Positions 5,124 to 23,607 of a stretch of 25,939 nt of DNA are shown here, piece after piece. Made by a program: the position numbers and the translations under genes. Origin of the DNA: a virus; IMG/VR virus record IMGVR_UViG_3300030101_000579, positions 1 through 25,939 of that record. One strand, written 5' to 3'. The notes under the pieces were generated by a model. That model was not told where the DNA came from. It saw only the letters and a list, made by a program, of their open reading frames with translations, and ran no database searches. Each line of letters starts with the position of its first letter. The first letter of the stretch is position 1.

Positions 5124-6671
5124 TTATAGTTCTACTTCATGTAAGTCAAGCCAGTTTTTTCCGATCTTCAATTCTATGCCAACCGGCATGTCGTACGTCA
5201 AGCCGTAACGACGCATAGTTTCGAACGGCAGCGACAGCATCGCGTGCTTCATTAAATCGATGCACGTGTCCTTTTCATCCGGATGTACATCCATCACGAT
5301 AGAGTCGTGAACAGTGTTACAAATCACGCTACGTATACCTGCACTCTTGACAACATTGTGTAATGAAACCAGTGCGATAGGCAGTAAGTCAGCAGTGGCG
5401 AACCCCTGCACAGGATAGTTACATATCGCCGTACGATTTGTAGCTGTGCCGTATTCTGTCCAACGCGCATCGGGGAACGCGTACTCCCGACCGGACGGGA
5501 GAGCAATCACGCGCTCCGTAACAGCCTGACGCTGTAGCTCCTCGTGCCACTCTGTCACGCCAGCGTACTTGTCTTTGAACGCGGCGTAGTACCGCTTCTG
5601 ATCCTCCGTACCGGACGTGCCGCCATATAAGGGCTTGAACGTGTGAGCCTTCGCCTCTTGTCGTGTGCAGCCGATAACCGACGCTGTGTAGTTGTGAACG
5701 TCGACAAAGTTTCGCACGTCGGTGTATGCCTGTTCATCCTTCGCAAGGAACCCTGCCACACGGAACTCTAACTGCGAGTAGTCCCCTTCAAGAATGTGAC
5801 CACCACTGAAGCGACTTTCGACGACCTTACGTATTGCGAATGTCGAACCGCGTGGCATGTTTTGGAAGTTCGGATTGCGAGACGAAAGCCTACCCGTCGC
5901 CGTAACACACTGCATGAATTCCGGATGGATAAAACCCTTCGAGTCCACATTGTTCTTGATCCCCTCGACGAACGTGTTGAGGTAGGTACGCAGGGCGTTA
6001 TACCGTACGTACGACTCTACGAACTCGCGACCATCTCCTCGTAAGTCGTCCCGCCGTTCGTCTAGTGTGTCCTTGTCTGTGCGGAACCCTGCCGCCGCCA
6101 AGTCGTACGTCGAACGAGGCAGGAGCTTAAACCCCGCAACCTCACCCGTCGACTTGTATATCACGCCTGCACCGCCGCAGCCCTTACACTTACGAGCGAG
6201 TTTACTCGGAGTGCCGTCCTTACGCACGGGGCGGTTCTTTCCGTGACCGAGACAACCAGCGCACCGCTCTGCACGGGTCTTGTAAGCAACTTCAGTCAGG
6301 CGACCGACATTACGATTGAACTCCTTACGTGACATACGTCGACGCATCTTAGGCTTGACCGTAGCACCACGCCGCTCCGTACCTAAGTTGAACGTCGCTG
6401 CCCACTCCTGTTTGTTCGTGACGCGACGGGAGTACAGAAGCATCGACCGATCATCCGGACTCGCAAGGTTGACAGGTGTGTCTCCTACCGCATCCTGTGC
6501 GAGTTCCTTGAGACGCACCTCTAATCCATCCATCTCTTGCTTATACGCTCGTTCGATTTCTTCGAGCGTGTCGAGATTTATCTTCAAGCCCTCTTGTTCG
6601 ATAGACGCGAGAGCGTCCGTCATCTCAAGCGACAGGCGCAGTGTCGGGACTAACCCATTTTTTGTCTGCAT
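5124..6671 (-). CDS. Family A DNA polymerase, polymerase domain, with DnaJ-like zinc-finger insert
   Basis: Replicative polymerase. The 515-aa form shows TGRLSSRNPNFQNMP near 259, motif A DYSQLE at 297-302, motif B R-x3-K-x3-F-x3-YG with F345 where E. coli Pol I has F762 and T7 has tyrosine, and motif C HDS at 455-457. Two CxxCxGxG repeats (C137/C140 and C162/C165) form a DnaJ-type zinc finger inserted before the fingers/palm region. A polymerase with a partial DnaJ central domain is known from SAR116 phage HMO-2011. No exonuclease motifs are present; they lie in the upstream gene. The start at 6669-6671 was chosen for GGAG six bases upstream. An ATG ten codons earlier lacks a binding site. 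The gene overlaps the exonuclease gene by 47 bp in another frame, across a run of six A. Confidence 0.93.
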   Translation of the reverse strand: MQTKNGLVPTLRLSLEMTDALASIEQEGLKINLDTLEEIERAYKQEMDGLEVRLKELAQDAVGDTPVNLASPDDRSMLLYSRRVTNKQEWAATFNLGTERRGATVKPKMRRRMSRKEFNRNVGRLTEVAYKTRAERCAGCLGHGKNRPVRKDGTPSKLARKCKGCGGAGVIYKSTGEVAGFKLLPRSTYDLAAAGFRTDKDTLDERRDDLRGDGREFVESYVRYNALRTYLNTFVEGIKNNVDSKGFIHPEFMQCVTATGRLSSRNPNFQNMPRGSTFAIRKVVESRFSGGHILEGDYSQLEFRVAGFLAKDEQAYTDVRNFVDVHNYTASVIGCTRQEAKAHTFKPLYGGTSGTEDQKRYYAAFKDKYAGVTEWHEELQRQAVTERVIALPSGREYAFPDARWTEYGTATNRTAICNYPVQGFATADLLPIALVSLHNVVKSAGIRSVICNTVHDSIVMDVHPDEKDTCIDLMKHAMLSLPFETMRRYGLTYDMPVGIELKIGKNWLDLHEVEL

Positions 6672-7212
6672 AAATATCTCCGTATGTGGTGCCAAAGGCA
6701 TCTAGCTGTTTGAGGGCTATCTCGTGTGTAGCGAGTACGTCAGCCCGTCCGTACTCTTCAATCACCTCCCACGGTATGTCGTAAAACGTGACCCCCTTCT
6801 CAAGATACGGCGCGACCATGTCCTTCTCTTTCTTGGTAACGTCATACTTTTCTGCAAGAGCAGCAAGTCCAAGAGGCCAACGCCTCGCTCGTGATAGAAT
6901 ATACTCCGCAACCATCGTATCATAAACTTCACCCTCGTACACAAACCCACACGCGCGTATCCACTGCAGGTCAAATTTGATGTTGTGACCCACAAGAATG
7001 TCACAAAAGTTCAAGGCGTCTTGAAATCTTGTGAACGCGTCAGGAGTGGGTGGCTCAGTCGAATGCGAGTAACAATCGTAGTACATGTACGGCTCACGTA
7101 TCCAGCGCCATCCTATCGATACAAGGCGATTGCCGAAATATGGTAGGGGGGTACTGCTGCCGTTCGCTTTGGCCGTGTGCGTCGTTTCTACGTCGAATAC
7201 GATACCGTTCAT
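6625..7212 (-). CDS. DEDDy 3'-5' exonuclease (proofreading domain of the phage DNA polymerase)
   Basis: Proofreading exonuclease of the DnaQ/Pol I class, 195 aa. Exo I is FDVETT (D7, E9), Exo II is VGHNIKFD (N77, D81), and Exo III is Y154-x3-D158 (YGRAD), which makes it DEDDy. In T7 this domain is the N-terminal part of gp5. Here it is a separate reading frame immediately before the polymerase domain. The start overlaps the stop of the 49-aa gene as ATGA. The last nine or so residues after the run of A at 6658-6663 look like out-of-frame reading: removing one A would join it to the polymerase as a 695-aa protein, close to T7 gp5 at 704 aa. It could therefore be a real split, a frameshifted product or a sequence error. 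Confidence 0.92.
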   Translation of the reverse strand: MNGIVFDVETTHTAKANGSSTPLPYFGNRLVSIGWRWIREPYMYYDCYSHSTEPPTPDAFTRFQDALNFCDILVGHNIKFDLQWIRACGFVYEGEVYDTMVAEYILSRARRWPLGLAALAEKYDVTKKEKDMVAPYLEKGVTFYDIPWEVIEEYGRADVLATHEIALKQLDAFGTTYGDIYADKKWVSPDTAPVA

Positions 7213-11897: not shown

Positions 11898-12515
11898 ATG
11901 ACAAAACAGGCCGCGCTTATCGATCACGAAAAGATGATCTACAATATTACCAGCGTCTACCGTGATGCTGACTGCGTCCAGCATAACGAGGGGCTTGTCT
12001 GGTATGAAAACGCACAGAAGGCGGCATATCTCATCGCGGTAAAATATGACATTGCGGTTTATATTGCGGTTGCTGTTATCGCCGCGCTTTCACCTAACAA
12101 CAGATGGTCACGTAACTTGACAAATGCTGACGCGTTAATCGGTGCCTTTGTGAATGGTGACGGCATCGACGCGGTGAAAGTCTCGACATATAACAAGATG
12201 AAACAGAAGGCATGGGACATCTTGGCGGCGCGTCCGGATTACGACGGCGCAAAACGTATGCTGAAGGGACAAAAAATCACGTCCTTTTTTATGGATATCA
12301 TGGGCGAGTTCAACGTGACCATAGACGGCCACGCCCGGAACATCGCCTATGGTGAGCGCGTCGGCCTCACTGACGACCGGACCAACATCGGCGTCCGTGA
12401 GTATCGCGCTCTTCAGGCTGCGTATGAGGCAGCAGCGGAACGGCTCGGCCTCATGCCCTACCAACTACAAGCGATTACTTGGCGCGTCTGGCGCGACCGG
12501 CACGGCATCACATGA
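11898..12515 (+). CDS. Hypothetical protein, 205 aa, DUF7178-like
   Basis: The sequence resembles a phage/actinobacterial hypothetical family that I recall as DUF7178: MIYNITSVYRDAD near the start, a WYENAQKAAYLIA helix, VIAALSPNNRWSRNLTNADAL, KGQKITSFFMDIMG, VTIDGHARNIAYG, and a C-terminal GLMPYQLQAITWRVWR. The alternation of helices and the D-x-HA motif are loosely reminiscent of helix-hairpin-helix DNA glycosylases, but catalytic residues cannot be assigned. AAAGG precedes the ATG. It opens the block in which arginine codons shift toward CGG, which suggests transfer from another phage. Confidence 0.7.
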   Translation: MTKQAALIDHEKMIYNITSVYRDADCVQHNEGLVWYENAQKAAYLIAVKYDIAVYIAVAVIAALSPNNRWSRNLTNADALIGAFVNGDGIDAVKVSTYNKMKQKAWDILAARPDYDGAKRMLKGQKITSFFMDIMGEFNVTIDGHARNIAYGERVGLTDDRTNIGVREYRALQAAYEAAAERLGLMPYQLQAITWRVWRDRHGIT

Positions 12516-12728
12516 CAAACGGGCCGACGCTAATATGTACGTTTTTTGGGGATTGGCTGGAGCTTCCTGCCGCGTTCGGGGGCGGGGCGACGGGCTGATC
12601 GACGGGCGCGGCGAGTCGCGGGGCTGCGTCCAACCGCCCGAAAAAATTTTCGGCGCGGGGGTTCAACTGGTGCAAATTGTGTGCCATGATTCAACTACCA
12701 ACAACGCATGAACAAAGGAGAACTAATC
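12516..12728 (+). promoter_or_regulatory. Intergenic region before the DUF932-like gene, with an operator-like inverted repeat
   Basis: About 210 bp without a convincing gene and with a GC-rich centre. It contains the inverted repeat CCGAAAA-AA-TTTTCGG (12638-12653). It also contains a TGTACGTTTTTT motif (12536-12547), whose complement recurs in later gaps, and a weak promoter-like pair, TTCAAC (12662-12667) and CATGAT (12685-12690), 17 bases apart. An AAAGGAG near 12713-12719 is the ribosome binding site of the next gene. Confidence 0.4.
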
Positions 12729-13748
12729 ATGCTTGACCTAATCGAACAAGAAACCACCGCTATCGATAACGCCGTGAAACACGGTGACGAGATTTATTCG
12801 AAACATGGCAATCCGTCTGATGTGAGCCTTTACAGCAAGTACGCAAAGGTGGAGCGGGTGCCGCTCACTGCCAGCACGCCTGTTCGTGCCTACGATGATC
12901 GGATGGAATTTGACATAATGACCGACCGACCTGTCGACGGTTATTCGGCATTGTATAATCGGGCGACCGATGCGCTGTTGGATGTCCGGCCAGTGTCCCG
13001 GCACTATGCCCTAATTCCGCACGATACCCTTTTTGGGAAACAAGCCGCGCTGCTGGCGGAATCTCCGCTGCCAACCGATAACGTGTCGGTTGTTGATCGT
13101 ATCTATGGCAACGGTAAACGGGTGCATCGGACGGTGATGTTCAACGACCTTAACACCGAAACCCGGACCCGTACCGGGCAGATTGACCTTGTGAAATGCC
13201 GCATGGACATTTTTAATTCGGTCGACCTGTCATGGGCCTTTCAGGTGTTTTCGGGTGCCTACCGTGACTTGTGCCGCAACTCGTTAGTGTTTGGTGGGCA
13301 GAAATCGTACCACCAGAGGAAGATTCACAAGGGGCACATCGATGTCGACGCCATGATGAAAAAGGCGGAAGTGGGCCTCGACATGTGGACGAACCAGCGT
13401 GACCAGATGGAAGTCTGGCAGAACAGCCACTGCTCGGAATTCGACCTGCTGCGGATGCTCAAGGCGACCATATGCCGGAAGAATACCCGGGCTGCCAAGC
13501 TAGACGAGAATCTGGCGATTAATGAGCGAAAGCTAAATTGGCTGCTGGAGCGGTTCAAGGAAGAGACCCCCGAACTGGGTTCGACCTTGTGGGCTGCTTA
13601 TAATGCCCTCACACACTACTCGACCCATCTCCCGAATATCCAAGCCCGGAATAGTAACCGGGAACTTGTCGCGACTAGACGGGCTGACGAAGTGCGGACG
13701 GTGATCGAGTCTGACTTCTGGCGCGGTCTCGAGCGAAAGGTGGCGTAA
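12729..13748 (+). CDS. DUF932-like phage/plasmid protein, 339 aa
   Basis: Features match the DUF932 (phage/plasmid-like) family: a VRPVSRHYALIPHDTLF block, HRTVMFNDL, then FNSVDLSWAFQVFSGAYRDLCRNSLVFGG, a run typical of the family core, followed by a helical C-terminus. The molecular function of DUF932 is not established. The ATG at 12729 is preferred because AAAGGAG lies nine bases upstream; that site is itself inside a seven-codon upstream extension starting at 12708. Nearly half of the arginine codons are CGG, unlike the terminase gene, which uses CGT, CGC and CGA. This is the clearest codon-use outlier in the window and suggests transfer. Confidence 0.8.
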   Translation: MLDLIEQETTAIDNAVKHGDEIYSKHGNPSDVSLYSKYAKVERVPLTASTPVRAYDDRMEFDIMTDRPVDGYSALYNRATDALLDVRPVSRHYALIPHDTLFGKQAALLAESPLPTDNVSVVDRIYGNGKRVHRTVMFNDLNTETRTRTGQIDLVKCRMDIFNSVDLSWAFQVFSGAYRDLCRNSLVFGGQKSYHQRKIHKGHIDVDAMMKKAEVGLDMWTNQRDQMEVWQNSHCSEFDLLRMLKATICRKNTRAAKLDENLAINERKLNWLLERFKEETPELGSTLWAAYNALTHYSTHLPNIQARNSNRELVATRRADEVRTVIESDFWRGLERKVA

Positions 13749-13829
13749 TTGGAAGCGCTTCTAATAGCGTACCGCTTGGCGGTTTTGTGCTTCTTAATCG
13801 TCTTGATCACGGCGATCATGCAATTCTAA
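13749..13829 (+). CDS. Possible 26-aa hydrophobic membrane peptide with TTG start
   Basis: Immediately after the DUF932 stop (TAATTG) there is an open frame of 26 codons encoding mostly hydrophobic residues (LEALLIAYRLAVLCFLIVLI, then TAIMQF). AAAGGTGG lies a few bases before the TTG. It reads as a single transmembrane helix and fills most of the gap before the next gene. Small size and a rare start codon leave it tentative. Confidence 0.35.
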   Translation: MEALLIAYRLAVLCFLIVLITAIMQF

Positions 13830-13849
13830 ACAAAGAAGGGAACAAAGAA

Positions 13850-14257
13850 ATGAGAGAACTACCGAAAGAACTTGTCGACCAATTTGTGAAACTGGCTGAT
13901 CGGTTTGAGCTGATTATTCGACAGGACGAACGCGACCAGCTAATCAACAAATTGCGCGGGACGTTGTTTGCGGAACAGATAGCGGAAGCTGAAATCGAAG
14001 AGCCGCCGCTGCCTGAATCGGTCCTGCAGCCGAACGACGATGTCGAACTGACGTCAACCCACTACTGCGCTATTCGCTGGATGTCGCAGGGGTTCATCGC
14101 CGTGCCTACTCTTGCCGGGCATATGGGTGTCCAGAAGAGATCGGTATATTCCTACCTGAGTGATCTGCGAAAGGCGGGTTACGACATAGAGGCGAAAAAT
14201 ACCGGGAACAACCGGGGCGGGTACTACAAAATATATCGGCTTGCCAGATCGGCCTAA
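13850..14257 (+). CDS. Winged-helix DNA-binding protein candidate, 135 aa
   Basis: The C-terminal half (about residues 65-130) looks like a winged helix-turn-helix. It has a first helix (THYCAIRWMSQ), IAVPTLAGHMGVQKRSVYSYLSDLRKAG as the helix-turn-helix with its recognition helix, then DIEAKNTGNNRGGYYKIY as the wing. The N-terminal half is charged and helical (ELVDQFVKLADRFELI, RDQLINKLRGTLF) and could mediate dimerisation. AAGGG lies about ten bases before the ATG. The upstream extension to 13787 is not used. It is a plausible regulator of this accessory block. Confidence 0.72.
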   Translation: MRELPKELVDQFVKLADRFELIIRQDERDQLINKLRGTLFAEQIAEAEIEEPPLPESVLQPNDDVELTSTHYCAIRWMSQGFIAVPTLAGHMGVQKRSVYSYLSDLRKAGYDIEAKNTGNNRGGYYKIYRLARSA

Positions 14258-15143: not shown

Positions 15144-15548
15144 ATGAATTTACTTCCGCAAAAACCCGTAAAAGAACGCGAATTGACGCCCCAACAGCGT
15201 ACGTTTCTCGATAATCTCTTCGAAAACGGCGGAAACGTCACTCAAGCAGCCGTAGATGCGGGTTATTCGAAGGGTTCGAGCCAGTGGCTCAAGAAAACTC
15301 TAGCCGATGAGATCGTCGAACGCACAAAAGACATCCTTTCCGTCAATGCGATCAAAGCAGCTAACCGCCTCGTCACGACAATAGACAATCCCGCCCCCGA
15401 ACGCGGTGACGACTTACGTCTCAAGGCAGCAGAATCGCTCCTCACACGCGTCGGCGTACGCGCTCCAGAGCAGATAAACCACAATGTCACGGCAATGCAC
15501 GGTGTAGTTCTGTTGCCACCGAAGAACGAAGTAGTCATCGATGGCTGA
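15144..15548 (+). CDS. Terminase small subunit candidate
   Basis: A 134-aa protein with an N-terminal helix-turn-helix-like segment: LTPQQRTFLDNLFENGGNVTQ then AAVDAGYSKGSSQWLKK (read in separate parts), typical of small terminase subunits that bind the packaging site. The C-terminal part (KAANRLVTTIDNPAP, LRLKAAESLLTRVGV) would form the oligomerisation helices. It lies immediately before, and overlaps by 8 bp, the large subunit gene. The start at 15144 was chosen because the promoter lies just before it; a frame open to 15069 would start upstream of the -35 box. There is no ribosome binding site, so the message is probably leaderless or nearly so. Confidence 0.85.
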   Translation: MNLLPQKPVKERELTPQQRTFLDNLFENGGNVTQAAVDAGYSKGSSQWLKKTLADEIVERTKDILSVNAIKAANRLVTTIDNPAPERGDDLRLKAAESLLTRVGVRAPEQINHNVTAMHGVVLLPPKNEVVIDG

Positions 15549-17232
15549 AGAAGCCCCCAAGAGGCGCGGCAGACCAAAAAAAGACCCTAATGCGCCAAAA
15601 GCCACATATAACCTGTCTACAAAGGAGCGTGCAAGGCGTGCAGCGACGAAACGTGTCAATGCTGCAAAGCGTCGTGCCGCAAAATCAACCAAAGCAGCAG
15701 AGGATAAACGCCGCTATGCCCGAAAGCTCGAAGAACAGGCTACCAAAGTTGAAAACGCTCTTGTCGGCAATCAGTCTGCCACAATCGATCTTGGGGATGT
15801 GGCTGATCTGCCAGACCCAGTATCGGAACTTGTCGGCGAAAGTGAAGTCGTCTTCCAACCGAATACGGGTCCGCAAACGGAATTTCTGTCGGCGGGTGAG
15901 CGAGACGTACTCTACGGTGGTGCAGCAGGGGGCGGTAAATCTTTCGCTCTCTTGGCCGATCCTTTGCGCTACTGTCACAACCCTAATCATCGTGGGCTTC
16001 TTCTTAGGCGTACTCTCGACGAGCTAACCGAACTGATCGACAAGTCTCGTCAACTCTACCCGAAGGCATTTCCGGGTGCGAAGTTCCGAGAGTCGAAGTC
16101 GACGTGGGTCTTTCCGTCCGGGGCGACGATGTGGTTTACGTACCTCGACAAAGACAAAGACGTGACGCGCTTTCAAGGTCAGGCGTTCAACTGGATAGGC
16201 ATCGATGAGATCACACAGTATCCCACACCGTACGTATGGGATTACCTGCGTTCTCGCCTTCGTACTACTGATCCTGAACTCCAGCAACACCTGTACATGC
16301 GCTGCACAGCCAACCCCGGAGGAGTGGGTGGTTGGTGGGTCAAGAAGACTTATATCGATGGCATCGAACCAAACAAGCCTTTTCCTGCCTTCGATATAGA
16401 AACCAAAAAAGACTTTCTGTGGCCTGACAGTCACGAGAAAGCAGGTCAGCCGCTGTTCCTTCGCAAATTCGTACCGGCGCGGTTGACCGACAATCCCTAC
16501 CTGATGGCAGACGGCCAATACGAGGCTATGCTCAGGTCGCTCCCGGATGTCGAACGAAGGCGACTCCTCGAAGGTGATTGGGACGTGGCGGAGGGAGCGG
16601 CCTTTCCCGAGTTTTCACGAGTGCGTCATGTTGTCGAGCCTTATGACCTTCCTACCAACTGGCCCCGCATACGAGCGGCGGACTACGGCTATGCGAGTCC
16701 GTCGTGCGTTTTGTGGGGGGCTATTGACTGGGACAATAATATCTGGATTTATCGCGAACTATATGCTAAACACTTGACAGCAGAAGAGTTAGCCGATAGA
16801 ATATTAGAAGCAGAACAACTCGATCCGTTACCGTACTATACGGTCCTCGACTCGTCGTGCTGGAATAAAACAGGCTTCGGTCCATCGATAGCAGAGACGA
16901 TGATGCGAGTCGGTGTGCGATGGACGCCATCCGACCGTAATCGTATTCAGGGGAAGATGGAAATACATCGTCGCCTCGCTGACGATCCGTACACGAACGA
17001 ACCGCGTCTACGTATCTTCTCTTCGTGTCAGAATATAATCAAACAGCTTGCGGGTATACCCCTGTCGAAAAGCAACAGTGAAGATGTAGACACTAAGTCA
17101 GAAGATCACGCGTACGACGCCTTACGCTACATGTTGATGACACGAGTGAGCGGATACTCGTCGATCCACAAACAACTCGGCGCAATCAAGAATCAAGTCC
17201 ACCAAGTTCACGACGCGACATTCGGATATTAA
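15541..17232 (+). CDS. Terminase large subunit (packaging ATPase/nuclease)
   Basis: The motor that pumps DNA into the prohead and cuts it, 563 aa. Walker A is GGAAGGGKS (126-134), Walker B is WIGIDEI (D222, catalytic E223), and the probable coupling motif is CTANPGG near 255. Nuclease acids are D381 (AADYGYA), D437 (VLDSS) and D522 or D527 (SEDHAYDALRY). The first ~75 residues are an unusual strongly basic extension with an AT-hook-like RRGRPKK at 8-14, followed by alanine-, lysine- and arginine-rich helix. The ATG overlaps the end of the small subunit gene (ATGGCTGA). The family call is firm; the role of the extension is inference. Confidence 0.95.
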   Translation: MAEEAPKRRGRPKKDPNAPKATYNLSTKERARRAATKRVNAAKRRAAKSTKAAEDKRRYARKLEEQATKVENALVGNQSATIDLGDVADLPDPVSELVGESEVVFQPNTGPQTEFLSAGERDVLYGGAAGGGKSFALLADPLRYCHNPNHRGLLLRRTLDELTELIDKSRQLYPKAFPGAKFRESKSTWVFPSGATMWFTYLDKDKDVTRFQGQAFNWIGIDEITQYPTPYVWDYLRSRLRTTDPELQQHLYMRCTANPGGVGGWWVKKTYIDGIEPNKPFPAFDIETKKDFLWPDSHEKAGQPLFLRKFVPARLTDNPYLMADGQYEAMLRSLPDVERRRLLEGDWDVAEGAAFPEFSRVRHVVEPYDLPTNWPRIRAADYGYASPSCVLWGAIDWDNNIWIYRELYAKHLTAEELADRILEAEQLDPLPYYTVLDSSCWNKTGFGPSIAETMMRVGVRWTPSDRNRIQGKMEIHRRLADDPYTNEPRLRIFSSCQNIIKQLAGIPLSKSNSEDVDTKSEDHAYDALRYMLMTRVSGYSSIHKQLGAIKNQVHQVHDATFGY

Positions 17233-17235
17233 TCG

Positions 17236-18849
17236 ATGGCAGAACTCGATCCAAAAACAGCTACAATACGCGAGGTCGCACAGGCATACGCTACAAAGAA
17301 CAAGCGAGGGGACGCTTTCGTCACATCCTCCGTACAGTTCTTCAAAGACATCGCTGATCAACCCGGCTCTGCTATGCGTCTTTTCGAAAAGGATGCGGAC
17401 GGAATCACTCTTCTCTCTCGTACGTTTAAGAATAGTGAAGACACGTCAACCGTTAAGACTGCCATGCAAAATTTGCGGCAGGTCGGCCTGACGCTCAAGG
17501 GTCTGTATGGTCCGGACACTCCAGAGTATAAGCTCCTTCCGGACAAGGCTCCGAACACGGACCTCAACAATCGAATCTTCGGACGCTCCGAACCTGCAAA
17601 GGCAGTATCTGAAGTTGCAATCAACCCGGATAAGGCCAAGATGAGCCAGTTGTTCGCGGGTGTTGCAAAGTATCTCGACGACCCGAAGACTCGTCCTATC
17701 GCACAAGCAATTATTTTTAATTTAAACACAGGCTTACGTCCTAACGCTGCGGCAGGTCTCAAAGTAACATCTTACAAGCCTGACAGCGGTGCTATCTACA
17801 TCGAATCAGAAGCGAAGGGTGCAAAGGGACGCGCTGTCAATATCCCTTTAAATCCAGTTGCAGATAGCATCCTGCAACAAAACCTGACTACTGGCAGTAA
17901 AGAATTTTTCTTTGTCAAGGCTAACGGGAAGCCCGTAACCTCACAAGACATGACTGACCTTCTAAAGACGGTCAAGGTTAAAGATATCGCATTTGATAGA
18001 GCGACAAATCGTTATTTCGATACTCTCGCGCCTGAAGGTTTCACTGGTAAGAAGGGTTCGCAACTTCTTCGGAATGTTCACGCTACAGTCGGACAGTCGA
18101 TTGGTATAGATCAGGACCGCCTCGCTTACCTTCAAGGCCGTAGCCTCAAGTCGGCAGGTAAAAGCAGCACGGGGGAACTGACAACGTACCAGCAAGCCTT
18201 TCCCGGTGCGGTCGGAGAGGTTGACAGGGCAAACGCAAATATGTTTGCAAGTTTCTGGGCAAACGCTGCAACGGAGGCAGGTTTCGATATCGGGGAACGC
18301 ATCCCGATGCCAACAGAAAGAATCACTACTCAAACTCCCGGATTTGAAGGATATTTTGAACTTCCTGCACAAGAAGCACCTGTTAAGGTAGCCCCGGAAG
18401 CAGATGCGCCTCTACCGACCACGCCTGCTGACTTCGATGACAACACAAAGGCCGCTCTCAAGAGTGCAGGTTTCAATATAGATTACTCGAAGATAACCGA
18501 TAAAGGCGGCAAGATATTAAAAGGACTACTGCCTGTCGCTGTAGGATCAAGCGCAATCATAGCTTCCAGAAAAGCAGAAGGGCAGGGAGACACTCCCTTT
18601 GTAGCTGGCATGAAGGGTGTTGCAGCAGGAGCGTCAGAGCTAATAGCACCTCCCGGAATGGCATTCAGTGATAGAGAGTTTCGTGAAGATCAGAGGGCTA
18701 CGACTCCCGGTGGATCAGGTCTTGGTCCGCGAACAGACGTTGCCCCTCAAACAGATGCTCTGGGATATATCAAACCAGAGTTTGCAATGTATCCTATGAA
18801 AGACGCTCCGCGTGAAAGTTTCTTAGATACTAAAGTAAAACAACCCTAA
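17236..18849 (+). CDS. Tyrosine-recombinase-like protein with a virion-type C-terminal extension
   Basis: A 537-aa protein in the head operon. Residues ~135-325 read like a tyrosine recombinase catalytic domain: TGLRPNAA holds the first arginine (R168), GAKGRAVNIPL looks like the lysine beta-hairpin (K194 or K197), LLRNVHAT holds the second arginine (R279), and ELTTYQQAF holds a candidate nucleophile (Y318). Spacings are like lambda integrase (99 and 31 there, 111 and 39 here). The two conserved histidines are not where expected (Q276 for the HxxR histidine, LQGRS for LGH), so activity is uncertain. Residues ~400-537 differ: a hydrophobic, glycine-rich LLPVAVGSSAIIAS segment, then GMKGVAAGAS and proline-rich sequence like a virion or ejected protein. 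It starts 3 bp after the terminase stop with no clear ribosome binding site. Confidence 0.75.
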   Translation: MAELDPKTATIREVAQAYATKNKRGDAFVTSSVQFFKDIADQPGSAMRLFEKDADGITLLSRTFKNSEDTSTVKTAMQNLRQVGLTLKGLYGPDTPEYKLLPDKAPNTDLNNRIFGRSEPAKAVSEVAINPDKAKMSQLFAGVAKYLDDPKTRPIAQAIIFNLNTGLRPNAAAGLKVTSYKPDSGAIYIESEAKGAKGRAVNIPLNPVADSILQQNLTTGSKEFFFVKANGKPVTSQDMTDLLKTVKVKDIAFDRATNRYFDTLAPEGFTGKKGSQLLRNVHATVGQSIGIDQDRLAYLQGRSLKSAGKSSTGELTTYQQAFPGAVGEVDRANANMFASFWANAATEAGFDIGERIPMPTERITTQTPGFEGYFELPAQEAPVKVAPEADAPLPTTPADFDDNTKAALKSAGFNIDYSKITDKGGKILKGLLPVAVGSSAIIASRKAEGQGDTPFVAGMKGVAAGASELIAPPGMAFSDREFREDQRATTPGGSGLGPRTDVAPQTDALGYIKPEFAMYPMKDAPRESFLDTKVKQP

Positions 18850-18860
18850 CGGAGGAAAAA

Positions 18861-19097
18861 ATGGCAAACCAGACCACGGGTAATTACAACTTTGGTGAAG
18901 CGTACATCATGAACGCCGATGCAACAACCATCGACGATCAGATGGGCGCGGACAAGCTCTATCGTGAGGGTCTCGAATTCGACACTCGCGCGAAGACCGA
19001 TGTCCTCACTGAAGACATGCCCAAGCAACAGACTAAGCCGACTGTAGAGGCTTCTCTGTTCAGCATGGCTGATGACCGCCCACAAGGCAACGACTAA
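18861..19097 (+). CDS. Small hypothetical protein of the head operon, 78 aa
   Basis: Not recognised. It is polar and acidic, beginning MANQTTGNYNFGEAYIMNAD and ending MADDRPQGND, with no membrane segment or cysteine. A strong GGAGG lies six bases before the ATG. It sits directly before the portal gene in a tightly packed operon, so it may be a minor head component or assembly factor, which is inference. Confidence 0.7.
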   Translation: MANQTTGNYNFGEAYIMNADATTIDDQMGADKLYREGLEFDTRAKTDVLTEDMPKQQTKPTVEASLFSMADDRPQGND

Positions 19098-19106
19098 AGG
19101 ATTATC

Positions 19107-21221
19107 ATGTCCGAAAACTTCCTAGAGCCGCAAGACGACACGGCAGTACCTATTCCGTCCCCTGAAGAACAGATGCCCGGCCTTGCCGGGTACGTCACGT
19201 CTAAATTTAAAGACGCAGAGAACGGCAGATATTCGTACGAGCAGCGTTGGCTTAAGGCGTACAAAAACTTTCGAGGAATCTACGATTCGACAACGCAATA
19301 CCGCGACTCAGAAAGGTCGAAGGTATTCATAAAAATAACAAAGACGAAAGTTCTTGCGGCGTACGGACAGATCGTCGACATCCTGTTTGCGAACAAAAAG
19401 TTTCCACTGGTTGTCGAGTCGACTCCCGTACCGGAAGGCATCGCAGAGTTCGCACATGCGCGGACGCCTGTCGATGAAATCAAACCCAGCGATCCGTACG
19501 GATTCCCCGGTGATGGACGTATGATAGCTCCGGGAGGTTTGATGGCGTCCGACTCCCACGTCTTGGGATCGTACGGAAAAGAGTTCGGGGATATGCTCGT
19601 TCCGGGCAAAGCGAAAGTCGGTGAACCACAGTTCGAACCGGCAAAGGAACAGGCCCGTCGGATGGAGAAGCTGATCCACGATCAACTCCTCGACACGAAT
19701 GCGGTCAACGTATTCCGCAAAGCGATATTCGAGTCCGCACTCTTGGGCACGGGCATCGTCAAGGGGCCGTTCAATTTCTTCAAGCGTGTCCACAAGTGGC
19801 AGCGCGGTGAAGATGGTGAGCGCGACTACATGCCCTACGAGAAGACTGTGCCTCGTATCGAGGCCGTCTCGCTTTGGGATTTCCACCCTGACCCGTCAGC
19901 TACGTCGATAGAGGATTGCGAGTACGTCATCGAGCGTCACCGCATGAATAGACAACAGCTACGTAGTCTCATCATGCGGCCACACTTCGACGCTACAGCG
20001 ATTCAAAATGTCCTTGCGAAGGGGCCGAACTATTCTGACAAATATTACGAAGACACGATCCGAGAGGACGAAACCGAAGCGTACTATCAAGAGAATCGTT
20101 TCGAAGTCCTTGAGTATTGGGGCGTCCTCGATGCTTACTTCGCTGACGAAGTAGGCTTAGAGGAAGCTAAAAACATGTCGGAGTTCGACCAGCTACAGGT
20201 CAACGTGTGGGTGTGTGGCAACGAAGTCTTGCGTTGCGTAGTCAACCCTTTCACTCCTGCGCGGATACCCTATCAAGCGTTTCCGTTCGAGATCAATCCC
20301 TATCAGATTTGGGGTGTTGGTGTCGCAGAGAATATGGAAGATGCCCAACTACTTATGAACGGTCACGTTCGTATGGCTATCGACAACCTCGCCCTCGCTG
20401 GCAACCTCGTCTTCGATGTCGACGAGGCATCCCTCGTGCCGGGACAGAACATGGACATCTTCCCCGGCAAGATATTCCGTCGTCAGTCAGGTGTTACGGG
20501 CACGGCCATTAACGGCCTTAAGTTCCCGAACACTGCTCCCGAGAACATACAGATGTATCAGATATCTCGCCAGCTTGCTGACGAGGAGACAGGCATACCA
20601 TCGATCATGCACGGTCAGACAGGGGTCACCGGCACCGGACGCACAGCAGCAGGACTGTCTATGCTGATGGGCAGTGCGGGTTTGTCGATGAAGACGGTCA
20701 TCAAGAACATCGACGATCATCTTCTCAAGCCACTCGGTGAAGCGTACTTTCAGTGGAACATGCAGTTCAACATGGAATCGGAGGACATCGAGGGTGACTT
20801 GGAGATTAAGCCACGCGGCGTAGCGGCAGTTATGCAGAAAGAGGTACGCACCCAGCGTCTCACCTCGTTACTGCAGACGATAGCTAATCCGATGCTTGCG
20901 CCGTTTGTGAAGCTGCCGAACCTCATGCGAGAGTTGGCAATCGCACAGGACATCGATCCGGACAGCCTCGTCAACGACGTAAACGAAGCACAACTCTACG
21001 CACAGATGTTACAAGGGATGATGCAGAATGCTCAACAAGCAGCAAGCGCGGAAGCTGGCGGCGCTCCTCAACAGCCCGGAATGGCCCCAAATGGAGGAGT
21101 ACCTAGCGGACCTCCGGGAAGTGACGATTCAGGCCGTGGTGATGGCACAATCGGAGTCGGAGTTGCGCCAGACGCAGGGGAAGCTGGCTTTACTGGAAAT
21201 GCTCCTCAAGTTGAAGAGTAA
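19107..21221 (+). CDS. Portal (head-tail connector) protein
   Basis: A 704-aa protein assigned as the portal, the dodecameric ring through which DNA enters and leaves the head. Support comes from position (after terminase, before scaffold and capsid genes), length typical of podovirus portals, and internal sequence: an N-terminal helical region with YEQRWLKAYKNFRGIYD, a KTKVLAAYGQIVDILF segment, aromatic and acidic stem-region sequence (VSLWDFHPDPSA, YVIERHRMNRQQLR), and a GVAENMEDAQLLMNGHVRMA helix. A DEETGIPSIMHGQ, GTGRTAAGLSMLM region follows, a type common in portals. The last ~65 residues are glycine/proline-rich and overlap another gene in a different frame. AAAGG precedes the ATG. Confidence 0.88.
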   Translation: MSENFLEPQDDTAVPIPSPEEQMPGLAGYVTSKFKDAENGRYSYEQRWLKAYKNFRGIYDSTTQYRDSERSKVFIKITKTKVLAAYGQIVDILFANKKFPLVVESTPVPEGIAEFAHARTPVDEIKPSDPYGFPGDGRMIAPGGLMASDSHVLGSYGKEFGDMLVPGKAKVGEPQFEPAKEQARRMEKLIHDQLLDTNAVNVFRKAIFESALLGTGIVKGPFNFFKRVHKWQRGEDGERDYMPYEKTVPRIEAVSLWDFHPDPSATSIEDCEYVIERHRMNRQQLRSLIMRPHFDATAIQNVLAKGPNYSDKYYEDTIREDETEAYYQENRFEVLEYWGVLDAYFADEVGLEEAKNMSEFDQLQVNVWVCGNEVLRCVVNPFTPARIPYQAFPFEINPYQIWGVGVAENMEDAQLLMNGHVRMAIDNLALAGNLVFDVDEASLVPGQNMDIFPGKIFRRQSGVTGTAINGLKFPNTAPENIQMYQISRQLADEETGIPSIMHGQTGVTGTGRTAAGLSMLMGSAGLSMKTVIKNIDDHLLKPLGEAYFQWNMQFNMESEDIEGDLEIKPRGVAAVMQKEVRTQRLTSLLQTIANPMLAPFVKLPNLMRELAIAQDIDPDSLVNDVNEAQLYAQMLQGMMQNAQQAASAEAGGAPQQPGMAPNGGVPSGPPGSDDSGRGDGTIGVGVAPDAGEAGFTGNAPQVEE

Positions 21222-21252
21222 TTACGAAGCGGTGGTGAGAAACGATGTCTAA
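21028..21252 (+). CDS. Overprinted hypothetical protein at the portal 3' end, 74 aa
   Basis: The frame shares 194 bp with the portal gene and runs 31 bp past its stop, overlapping the next gene by 8 bp. The product looks like a genuine soluble helical protein: QQARKLAALLNSPEWPQMEEY, read in parts, then LREVTIQAVVMAQ, SELRQTQGKLALLEMLLKLK. The portal reading of the same DNA is low-complexity glycine/proline sequence, so the 74-aa frame is the one that looks constrained. Short phage proteins with a SPEW...Q-G...LL layout occur at this place in other phages. AAGGGATG lies upstream of the ATG. The function is unknown. Confidence 0.65.
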   Translation: MLNKQQARKLAALLNSPEWPQMEEYLADLREVTIQAVVMAQSESELRQTQGKLALLEMLLKLKSNYEAVVRNDV

Positions 21253-23569
21253 AACGCTAACTCCTGAACAATATCAACAACAATTTGTCGATTACTACTC
21301 TTTTCCCGGCATCGGTGTAGAAGCGGCACCTGAAGTAGATGATGAAGAAAAAGATGACGAACCAGTACGTCCAAACATCCTCACACCCGTCGGTCAACGT
21401 GACGAACAAGTAGCAAACGTATTCGGTCAGATTCCTATCGTAGGTACGGGCCAGCAAATCTCTACGGAAGACCCGTACGAGTACATTCGTAACTTTGACA
21501 CTCAAGAGAAAAGCGACTTGAACGGCAAGGGATTTAGTCGGTACCTCGAACAGGCTGCAGGAGTACCCGGTACTGTAGCCACTGTAGCTACAGGACTTCC
21601 TATCTCTGCTCTAGCGTACGGCGCTGGGCAACTTGCACGAAAACAACATCGCAAGAACGCCGAGTCAATCGCTTCGTACGGCGGCAACGCGGGTTCGATG
21701 TTCAAGTTTCAAGGTCAGACTGTTAGTCGCGCACCGGGTAGTAAAATCTTTACTGGTAACTTGGGTGGCCTCAGTCAGAGTGATATGTATCGCACAGATG
21801 AAATACGCAAAGGTTTCATCCCGGGCACGATGATAGAAAACACGTCTATACGCAGGGGTGCGGGTCCGCAAGGTATGCCCGGTTCATCAGGACTCTCCGG
21901 TGTTACGAGTATCGAGGGCGCAATCATGGACGCGTTTGGTACCGTGCATACGGGACAGCGCGATGATTCGGGTCACATGATGGTTTCCGCATCTCAGGCA
22001 CAAGCTCTCCGTGAAAAAGAGTTTCGTAGCATGGCGCGACAGGCTGAAGTGGATATCTCAGGTCTCAAGGGCGTGAACTTTGTAAATGCTGCCGTAGCTT
22101 ACAAGCAGCACGTTGATGGCGTTATGAAAACCGACTCCTCGTATGGTGGTTTCTTTCACAAAACGAGCAATTTAAGTCCGGGTCAAAATGCGTCTGCACT
22201 CGACAGGCGTCGGGGTACGGCAGTTGACTTTCTCAAAGACAAGTACGGCATCACGCCGACTACTAAAGTAGATACATCGCAACCGGATGACTTCGTGCCG
22301 TCCGTAACTGAATCACGCAGCGAAGCGAATCGTATACGAGAAGCAGAAAGAGATGCCGCATTTGAAAGAGGTCAAGCCGCGCGAGATCGTATGATGGATC
22401 GTCTTAGGGACGAGGGTGATCCTCAAGAAACATCCCCAACAGAATACAGCATGAGTGACTTTGCTGATGATTACGCGGCAAGCTATGAGGGCGTTACTGA
22501 CTTCGGATTCCGCAGAGGCGGTCGCGTCGGTATGGCAGAGGGTGACACACCTCAAGGCACCTTCGAACCCGGTTTCGTCGAGGGGCCACCCGAGAACTTT
22601 ACAGAGCGTGAAACCGTAGCCGACGATCAAAACGGCAAGGTCACACCGGACACATTTATCATCAACGCAGCAGCCGTAGAAATCGCCGGTAGCGAAGACA
22701 TACGAAAGATGTTGATGAAAGCCTACGAAGTGGCTGTACAAAAAGGACTTGACATTGGCCGTGTAGATCGTAAACTATATGAAGGGACAGTAGACGTTGC
22801 TCTTTCGAAGGGCGAAGTTGTCGTACCTCCTGAGTTAGCCAAAATCATCGGCTACGACCGCCTCCGCAAAATTAACAACCGTGGTAAGAAAGAAGTCGCG
22901 AGTCGGCAGAAAAAAGCGGGGGGTGGATTCCTCGACGGAAAAAAGTTCGCAGACGGGGGTGACGTAGGGGAAGACATTCCTTTCGATCAGTCCATACCCA
23001 TCGATGACAGCACTCGTAAAGTTTTTAAGACGTTCCTAAAAAGTAAAAGACAACGCGGGGATGTTGAAAACTTAATAGATAGTTTGGATGATAGAGGAAG
23101 GCTGTTTGTTTTAGGTTTAGTTGAAACGACCGCATCTACAGACTCAGTAGAGTCTATGACAGGTGTTATGCAAACCGCTGTTAATAGAGCAAACACTAAT
23201 CGTCCAAGTTTTAAAAATGTGAACGATTTAGCATCTGTAATGAAGCAAAGATCATCACGAGGCACTGGAAGTCGTATGTTTCAGTACGACGGACTAGAGC
23301 CGAAAAAAATTACACCTCGTTTACGAGAGGTTGTTCAAGGCCGGGTTCCTAATGCAGTCAGCAAGCTGTTCACAGCAGCGGAAAACTTAATGAATCCTGA
23401 AACAGAGGGTCAACGACCTCTTCCATCTGACATAATGTTTTATACGAAACCTGACGCTCCTTTAGCGAAAGATTTCGAAGACAATCCTAAAATGAGATAT
23501 TTTACAAGTTTTGGAGGGCACGACTATTATGCCCTCGATGCGGCCCCGGAAGGGTTCGTAAATAATTAG
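21245..23569 (+). CDS. Large putative virion protein with C-terminal SleB-like cell wall hydrolase domain
   Basis: A 774-aa multidomain protein. Residues 1-100 are acidic. Residues 104-130 (AAGVPGTVATVATG, SALAYGAGQLARK) are hydrophobic and glycine-rich, as in ejected proteins. Residues 355-395 are a charged helix. FRRGGRVGMAEG (422-433), DTFIINAAAVE (469-479) and SKGEVVVPPELAKIIG (521-536) are motif types recurrent in marine phage structural proteins. Residues ~590-770 resemble SleB-type hydrolases: E627 in LVETTAS as candidate catalytic glutamate, VMQTAVNRA, RMFQYDG, DIMFYTKPDAP and FGGHDYYA. A role in cutting peptidoglycan during DNA entry is inferred. The hydrolase-like part is AT-richer than the rest (many TTA, AGA and TTT codons). 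It starts 8 bp inside the preceding gene. Confidence 0.75.
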   Translation: MSKTLTPEQYQQQFVDYYSFPGIGVEAAPEVDDEEKDDEPVRPNILTPVGQRDEQVANVFGQIPIVGTGQQISTEDPYEYIRNFDTQEKSDLNGKGFSRYLEQAAGVPGTVATVATGLPISALAYGAGQLARKQHRKNAESIASYGGNAGSMFKFQGQTVSRAPGSKIFTGNLGGLSQSDMYRTDEIRKGFIPGTMIENTSIRRGAGPQGMPGSSGLSGVTSIEGAIMDAFGTVHTGQRDDSGHMMVSASQAQALREKEFRSMARQAEVDISGLKGVNFVNAAVAYKQHVDGVMKTDSSYGGFFHKTSNLSPGQNASALDRRRGTAVDFLKDKYGITPTTKVDTSQPDDFVPSVTESRSEANRIREAERDAAFERGQAARDRMMDRLRDEGDPQETSPTEYSMSDFADDYAASYEGVTDFGFRRGGRVGMAEGDTPQGTFEPGFVEGPPENFTERETVADDQNGKVTPDTFIINAAAVEIAGSEDIRKMLMKAYEVAVQKGLDIGRVDRKLYEGTVDVALSKGEVVVPPELAKIIGYDRLRKINNRGKKEVASRQKKAGGGFLDGKKFADGGDVGEDIPFDQSIPIDDSTRKVFKTFLKSKRQRGDVENLIDSLDDRGRLFVLGLVETTASTDSVESMTGVMQTAVNRANTNRPSFKNVNDLASVMKQRSSRGTGSRMFQYDGLEPKKITPRLREVVQGRVPNAVSKLFTAAENLMNPETEGQRPLPSDIMFYTKPDAPLAKDFEDNPKMRYFTSFGGHDYYALDAAPEGFVNN

Positions 23570-23607
23570 TCAGCTACCCGCGTGTTCGCGGCCCTGACAC
23601 AACCGGA

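Follow-up and report, generated by a model that had tools for sequence, protein, structure and literature searches.

A hypervariable gene with a predicted tyrosine-recombinase fold in the head operon of HMO-2011-type phages

The slot between terL and portal

The DNA analysed here, positions 1 to 25,939 of IMG/VR virus record IMGVR_UViG_3300030101_000579 (the window, 25.9 kb), is a piece of an HMO-2011-type podovirus genome. Our subject is the gene at 17236–18849, which occupies a slot between the genes for the large terminase subunit (terL) and the portal, and which encodes a protein with a predicted tyrosine-recombinase fold and a C-terminal tail. TerL precedes it, with 3 nt between the terL stop and the slot gene start, and a 78-amino-acid (aa) open reading frame (ORF) and the portal follow, so the gene sits inside the packaging/head operon. 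The original prediction, made from the sequence of the window, had set the gene between large terminase and portal; its position in the head operon stands, with the correction that the 78-aa ORF intervenes and the slot gene therefore does not directly abut the portal gene.

15541 to 17232, + strand: terminase large subunit TerL, upstream neighbour (phrog_979, E 1e-60)
17236 to 18849, + strand: slot gene, ATG start, 537-aa tyrosine-recombinase-fold protein with C-terminal tail (ORF, profile matches, model)
18861 to 19097, + strand: 78-aa protein separating slot gene and portal (conserved among relatives)
19107 to 21221, + strand: portal protein, downstream neighbour (phrog_332, phrog_1216)

Occupancy of the slot was surveyed at 185 loci having both neighbours, gathered from a TerL scan, a portal scan and earlier loci; a large ORF means one of at least 300 aa, and TerL identity was measured against the window TerL. 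Where TerL was at least 60% identical, one large ORF lay between terL and portal at 152/152 loci; below 60%, the slot was without a large ORF at 31 of 33 loci (usual gap −48 to 97 nt). The remaining two loci are from rhizobial phages and carry unrelated large genes there, for an SGNH hydrolase in phiM6 (L049:5222-6829) and for an 850-aa protein in RHph_N3_19 (L050:3935-6484), both rejected as slot homologues; the terL–portal site may therefore be a general insertion slot.

Every relative of the slot gene with both neighbours has it between terL and portal, not beside attP in the early/lysogeny region as a temperate-phage integrase would be. All these relatives are metagenomic contigs; start codons are predicted, and some homologues may start further upstream. 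In the cultured phages HMO-2011, CRP-2 and HTVC115P the slot is without a large gene. Searching cultured phages by tblastn with slot protein L089 gave no match, and with L130 just integrase-type regions at low identity. Whether relatives are already described in other HMO-2011-type phages had been raised as a question; the cultured ones checked are without the slot gene, and HMO-2011 and CRP-3 have int upstream of the replication module (PMC9038755).

By hmmscan the slot protein matches PF00589 with an expectation value (E) of 2.1e-5 and 24.8 bits, slightly below the Pfam cut-off of 27.1; a genome search scored it at 27.1 bits, rated over the cut-off. The 'integrase' family phrog_216 also matches (E 1.8e-7), and PF00589 was found in 20/20 aligned homologues. 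A sequence-only search of the PDB with the slot protein gave no match, and PDB profile searches reached only XerH (E 0.32 with profile A1, 0.019 with profile A2), so a comparison of folds was required.

A first full-length model was poor (predicted local distance difference test score, pLDDT, 49.5), and Foldseek nonetheless placed tyrosine recombinases on top. The better AlphaFold2 model, of residues 1–386 only and from an alignment of 22 diverse homologues, has a mean pLDDT of 77.5 (mainly 83–96 in the catalytic core) and a predicted template modelling score of 0.63. Its top 47 Foldseek matches in the PDB are tyrosine recombinases without exception, the best being Tn1549 Int (E 4e-6). VIA-align gave Z 14.1 over 249 residues to the archaeal Xer 4a8e, with topoisomerase IB next at Z 8–9 and SroF (9rgl) among the matches at Z 8.8. 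Model residues 7–352 superpose on 9–279 of the 4a8e chain, including its N-terminal domain. From these structural matches we assign the first 117 residues as core-binding-like and residues 125–347 as catalytic.

17236 to 17586, + strand: predicted core-binding-like N-terminal helical domain, residues ~1–117 (helices 11–22, 26–36 and 71–90 in the model)
17608 to 18276, + strand: predicted catalytic domain, residues ~125–347 (profile match, model, Foldseek, VIA-align)

We take the ORF as confirmed to be real and, in the model, to have a complete tyrosine-recombinase fold of core-binding plus catalytic domain. The middle of the protein had been read as a tyrosine recombinase beforehand, and structure prediction bears this out.

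The active site

Active-site columns of the window family were read from 53 homologues, and the counts cover those having the position.

17737 to 17739, + strand: R168, Arg-I (TGLR); Arg in 53/53
17815 to 17817, + strand: K194, beta-hairpin lysine; Lys in 51/53, Gln in L067/L068, Ala in L080–L082
18061 to 18063, + strand: Q276 at the His-II position, non-His; Ala, Gln, Pro or Ser in relatives
18070 to 18072, + strand: R279, Arg-II; Arg in 52/52
18139 to 18141, + strand: R302 at the His/Trp-III position (LQGRS replacing LLGHS); Arg in 51/51
18187 to 18189, + strand: Y318, predicted nucleophile; Tyr in 49/49, the loop being gone in L035

R168, a lysine hairpin, R279 and Y318 had been proposed in tyrosine-recombinase order; they lie where proposed, the hairpin lysine is K194 (K197 beside it is likewise conserved), and the homologue alignment finds both arginines and the tyrosine kept wherever the position exists. 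The proposed replacement of the two active-site histidines was also recovered, His-II having become Q276 and His/Trp-III R302. The homologue at L035:1881-3446 otherwise looks intact and has undergone a precise deletion of the loop bearing the catalytic Tyr.

Position III is Arg throughout the window family and His in other slot families. In the seven slot families that could be aligned, whose members diverge down to 26–41% identity, all 28 columns that hold Arg-I, Arg-II, Tyr or position III (His or Arg) are invariant, and invariant columns overall make up only 10–29% per family; the invariance of the four catalytic positions argues against simple active-site decay. Purifying selection on the recombinase part is strong, with a ratio of nonsynonymous to synonymous rates (dN/dS) of 0.03–0.06.

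His-II is never His in those seven families. It is His solely in L127, L130 and L131, proteins of the same slot whose R-K-H-R-H-Y sites are nearly canonical and which match PF00589 with E 5e-23 (L130) and 3.4e-24 and 5.9e-24 (L127/L131). Several Cre proteins substituted at H289 remain able to recombine DNA, as do Flp H305 mutants to cleave it; Cre K201A is inactive (PMC4381057). His-II matters less than the arginines, and losing His-II alone fits catalytic chemistry.

Cassette exchange, the tail and the neighbouring genes

There were 101 non-redundant slot proteins, 98 of them joined by BLAST of their recombinase parts (E ≤ 1e-5), and profile comparison connects slot families that BLAST joins poorly; judged by these comparisons, slot proteins form one hypervariable tyrosine-recombinase superfamily. 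Single-linkage clustering of whole proteins merged almost everything and was replaced by separate comparisons of N-terminal parts and tails.

Portals of L194, L161 and L163 are 99.8, 99.6 and 99.3% identical to that of the window, with recombinase parts at 46, 42 and 29%; L001 is the opposite case (portal 89%, recombinase part 98%). In a set of 65 genomes, similarity between portals is almost uncorrelated with similarity between recombinase parts (Spearman 0.11). Alignments of DNA place the exchange edges at the following positions.

17239 to 17244, + strand: left edge of exchanged cassette, where DNA similarity to L161, L163, L165, L167, L168 and L194 ends
18839 to 18842, + strand: right edge of exchanged cassette, where DNA similarity to nine relatives restarts

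Flanking DNA similarity is 83–94% before the left edge (the six relatives) and 81–94% after the right edge (the nine). The whole gene is thus swapped as a cassette among near-identical phages, with edges exactly at the ORF ends. Exchange also occurs within it: 118 pairs have a common tail (E ≤ 1e-8) and recombinase parts at E > 0.01, and 38 pairs are the reverse. L087 has a tail at 68% identity to the window tail and a recombinase part with no detectable similarity; for L191 the values are 82% (tail) and 28% (recombinase part). Recombinase and tail parts shuffle independently.

18391 to 18846, + strand: C-terminal tail, residues 386–537, swapped independently of the recombinase part (identity to L087/L191 tails)
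18508 to 18564, + strand: hydrophobic stretch of the tail (GKILKGLLPVAVGSSAIIA)
18817 to 18825, + strand: terminal [GSND]F[LIVM] motif, SFL in RESFLDTKVKQP (motif enrichment in slot proteins)
21245 to 23569, + strand: second variable head-operon protein, 774 aa, terminal motif PEGFVNN (exchanged stretches, motif count)

The motif [GSND]F[LIVM] falls within the last 45 residues of 87/101 slot proteins, against a shuffled expectation of 7.8 (maximum 18 in 2,000 trials), and 73 copies begin 5–9 residues before the C-terminus. The second variable head-operon protein has it in 24/54 cases (3.6 by shuffling), and it has zero occurrences in TerL, coat protein (MCP) and the 78-aa protein. ORFs of the minus strand, taken as background, show a slight excess (12/48 versus 6.6, p 0.023); the motif is therefore strongly enriched in slot proteins yet not unique to them. 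A hydrophobic 19-residue stretch occurs in 65/101 tails versus 2/101 recombinase parts. The shared terminal motif and the hydrophobic stretch lead us to favour the tail as a putative virion docking element. A virion-like tail of about 130 residues had been predicted: a separate tail module is indeed present, its length is nearer 150, and 'virion-like' stems from terminal motif, hydrophobic stretch and location. BLAST of slot tails against the second variable protein found no homology, the short motif alone being in common.

In the 774-aa gene, relatives whose portals are near-identical have other sequence around 21254–22235 and 22967–23573, and the L133 counterpart of this gene includes a Cell Wall Hydrolase domain. 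Coupling of slot and second-gene alleles was considered and rejected as weak (partial r 0.08–0.24).

The rightward operon of the window runs TerS, TerL, slot gene, 78-aa gene, portal, 774-aa gene, probable scaffold (316 aa) and coat protein; in the leftward operon are genes for ribonucleotide reductase, endonuclease I, helicase, primase and a family-A DNA polymerase that includes a partial DnaJ domain. The 78-aa protein (18861–19097), which has an LTEDMPK motif, is conserved at its place before the portal in those relatives that were examined. Portals of the clade (19107–21221 in the window) finish at the C-terminus in a conserved GFTGN, similar to the terminal motif of slot proteins. The DNA polymerase at 5124–7212 appears as a pair of overlapping ORFs, one for a 195-aa exonuclease and one for a 525-aa DnaJ/polymerase, which may be a true split or a frameshift; in HMO-2011 it is a single gene. 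Three genes at 11898–14257, between the divergent operons and TerS, have at most weak regulator similarity (phrog_3842, phrog_1221, phrog_2030).

Interpretation and comparison with known systems

Eleven long slot-clade contigs had no PF00589 or phrog_216 match besides the slot gene, and the HMO-2011 integrase as query had no match in them; in the window, itself a genome fragment, the slot gene is the sole PF00589 match. Four of the 11 contigs, of 52–54 kb, have ends that overlap (at 98–99% identity in two, at 91% in one and as an exact repeat of 4.5 kb in the other), as expected of genomes that are complete or almost complete. The same query found its target in HMO-2011, CRP-2 and CRP-3, 3/3 cultured relatives, all with an empty slot; int of HMO-2011 and CRP-3 is upstream of the replication module. 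This is its place in HMO-2011-type subgroups I–III, and none is reported in IV–X, which have been called probably lytic because no integrase was identifiable (PMC9038755).

Our leading interpretation, held tentatively and at somewhat less than even confidence, is a tyrosine recombinase that is made late, is associated with the virion and is probably ejected, and that changes its specificity through exchange of cassettes. The fuller version, which we hold a little more loosely, is a virion-delivered site-specific recombinase, docked by its tail and injected with the DNA, with a pool of modules giving near-identical particles different specificities. As the operon suggests, the protein would be translated late alongside the head proteins; its tail might then dock it in the procapsid through the short [GSND]F[LIVM] motif, which is what points to this step. 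It would be packaged and ejected with the DNA, by analogy with other phages, its N-terminal part holding DNA through the core-binding and catalytic domains. In the new cell it could cut and rejoin DNA site-specifically, for integration or genome circularisation, before new protein synthesis, as analogy and active-site conservation suggest. Swapping of the whole gene, the recombinase half or the tail half would alter target specificity. Packaging, ejection, catalytic activity, substrate and the equation of diversity with target specificity are the parts that we infer.

Several observations weigh against an ejected recombinase. The window protein is without both histidines, with Arg replacing His/Trp-III; the hairpin lysine is Gln or Ala in two sublineages (L067/L068 and L080–L082); and L035 has a clean 63-nt in-frame deletion that removes 21 residues including Y318, so that the enzyme of at least one genome may be dead. 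There were zero prophages of the clade in 84,980 species genomes (one per species; the hosts may be uncultured), which leaves integration unsupported. An inverted repeat within the slot gene was rejected as a target site, slot genes giving no signal of one, and the slot protein covaries only weakly with the second variable protein.

Of the rivals, the one to which we give most weight, while thinking it unlikely, is an active tyrosine recombinase that is expressed late and stays unpackaged. It would act as infection ends, on DNA already replicated, to resolve dimers or concatemers or to integrate in a cell infected late, with the tail serving localisation in the cell. Conserved catalytic positions, a gene immediately after terL and the lack of another integrase in the long slot-clade contigs all agree with it; left unexplained are the shuffling of tails and a terminal motif that also occurs in the second variable head-operon protein, whose class has a cell-wall hydrolase among its members.

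Ranked next, and again unlikely, is exaptation of the recombinase fold for a virion protein, structural or ejected, which would have retained DNA binding, lost catalysis and docked in the head by its tail. The missing histidines of the window family, the loss of K194 in two sublineages, the L035 Tyr-loop deletion, the head-operon position and the virion-like tail speak for it. However, a structural role predicts decay of the kind seen in MrpR, which retains Lys and Tyr but neither of the arginines (PMC10516654), and slot proteins keep Arg-I, Arg-II, position III and Tyr invariant in seven families at identities down to 26–41%. The original prediction had offered this repurposed fold beside a recombinase carried in the virion; because of that invariance the former is disfavoured, and we infer that the latter is the better reading.

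Improbable is a regulator that binds DNA, or an immunity/exclusion factor, built on a recombinase fold and diversified by phage competition (heteroimmunity) like the SPbeta and phi3T repressors MrpR and SroF. It would account for the extreme allelic diversity uncoupled from the backbone (the portal–slot correlation above), it has a known precedent, and SroF is among the structural matches, yet the catalytic residues gone in MrpR are retained in slot proteins, and a repressor gene with a virion-type tail would be odd in the terL–portal slot.

In open-access papers we found no packaged phage integrase and no head-operon integrase in this group, so that a head-operon, possibly virion-carried recombinase in marine phages seems undescribed in that literature. 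If the ejected-recombinase reading is true, the enzymes that tailed phages may bring along in their virions would gain a further class, and an integrase-type gene would be evolving like an antigen or toxin cassette, not like a lysogeny gene. The terminal motif is a directly testable candidate packaging signal. The HMO-2011-type group is among the dominant marine phages (PMC9038755), and the finding bears on whether its 'obligately lytic' subgroups are lytic; a diverged head-operon recombinase could have escaped integrase identification in IV–X, should the slot clade belong there.

Compared with PF00589 recombinases (4a8e, Tn1549 Int, lambda Int, XerH), the slot protein has the same predicted two-domain fold and the same order and spacing of Arg-I, hairpin Lys (in the window and most relatives), Arg-II and Tyr. 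Unlike them, the window family has no His-II, Arg at His/Trp-III and a 150-aa C-terminal tail, and the slot gene has a head-operon position, swaps alleles and has no known attachment (att) site.

Large enzymes or pilot proteins are delivered with phage DNA in several systems (P22 gp7/16/20, T7 gp14–16 and the N4 virion RNA polymerase, vRNAP), and to our knowledge no ejected podovirus protein is a site-specific recombinase. Beside these, delivery of the slot protein, known here from sequences, is a proposal.

Among the SPbeta and phi3T proteins MrpR (YopR) and SroF, MrpR, a repressor (PMC10516654), has an altered active site like that of the slot protein; unlike MrpR, slot proteins keep their arginines and Tyr invariant. 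The closest comparison by phage group is with the integrases HMO-2011 gp09 and CRP-3 gp02, which belong to the same enzyme superfamily; theirs are genes upstream of the primase/replication module, whereas the slot gene lies in the head operon.
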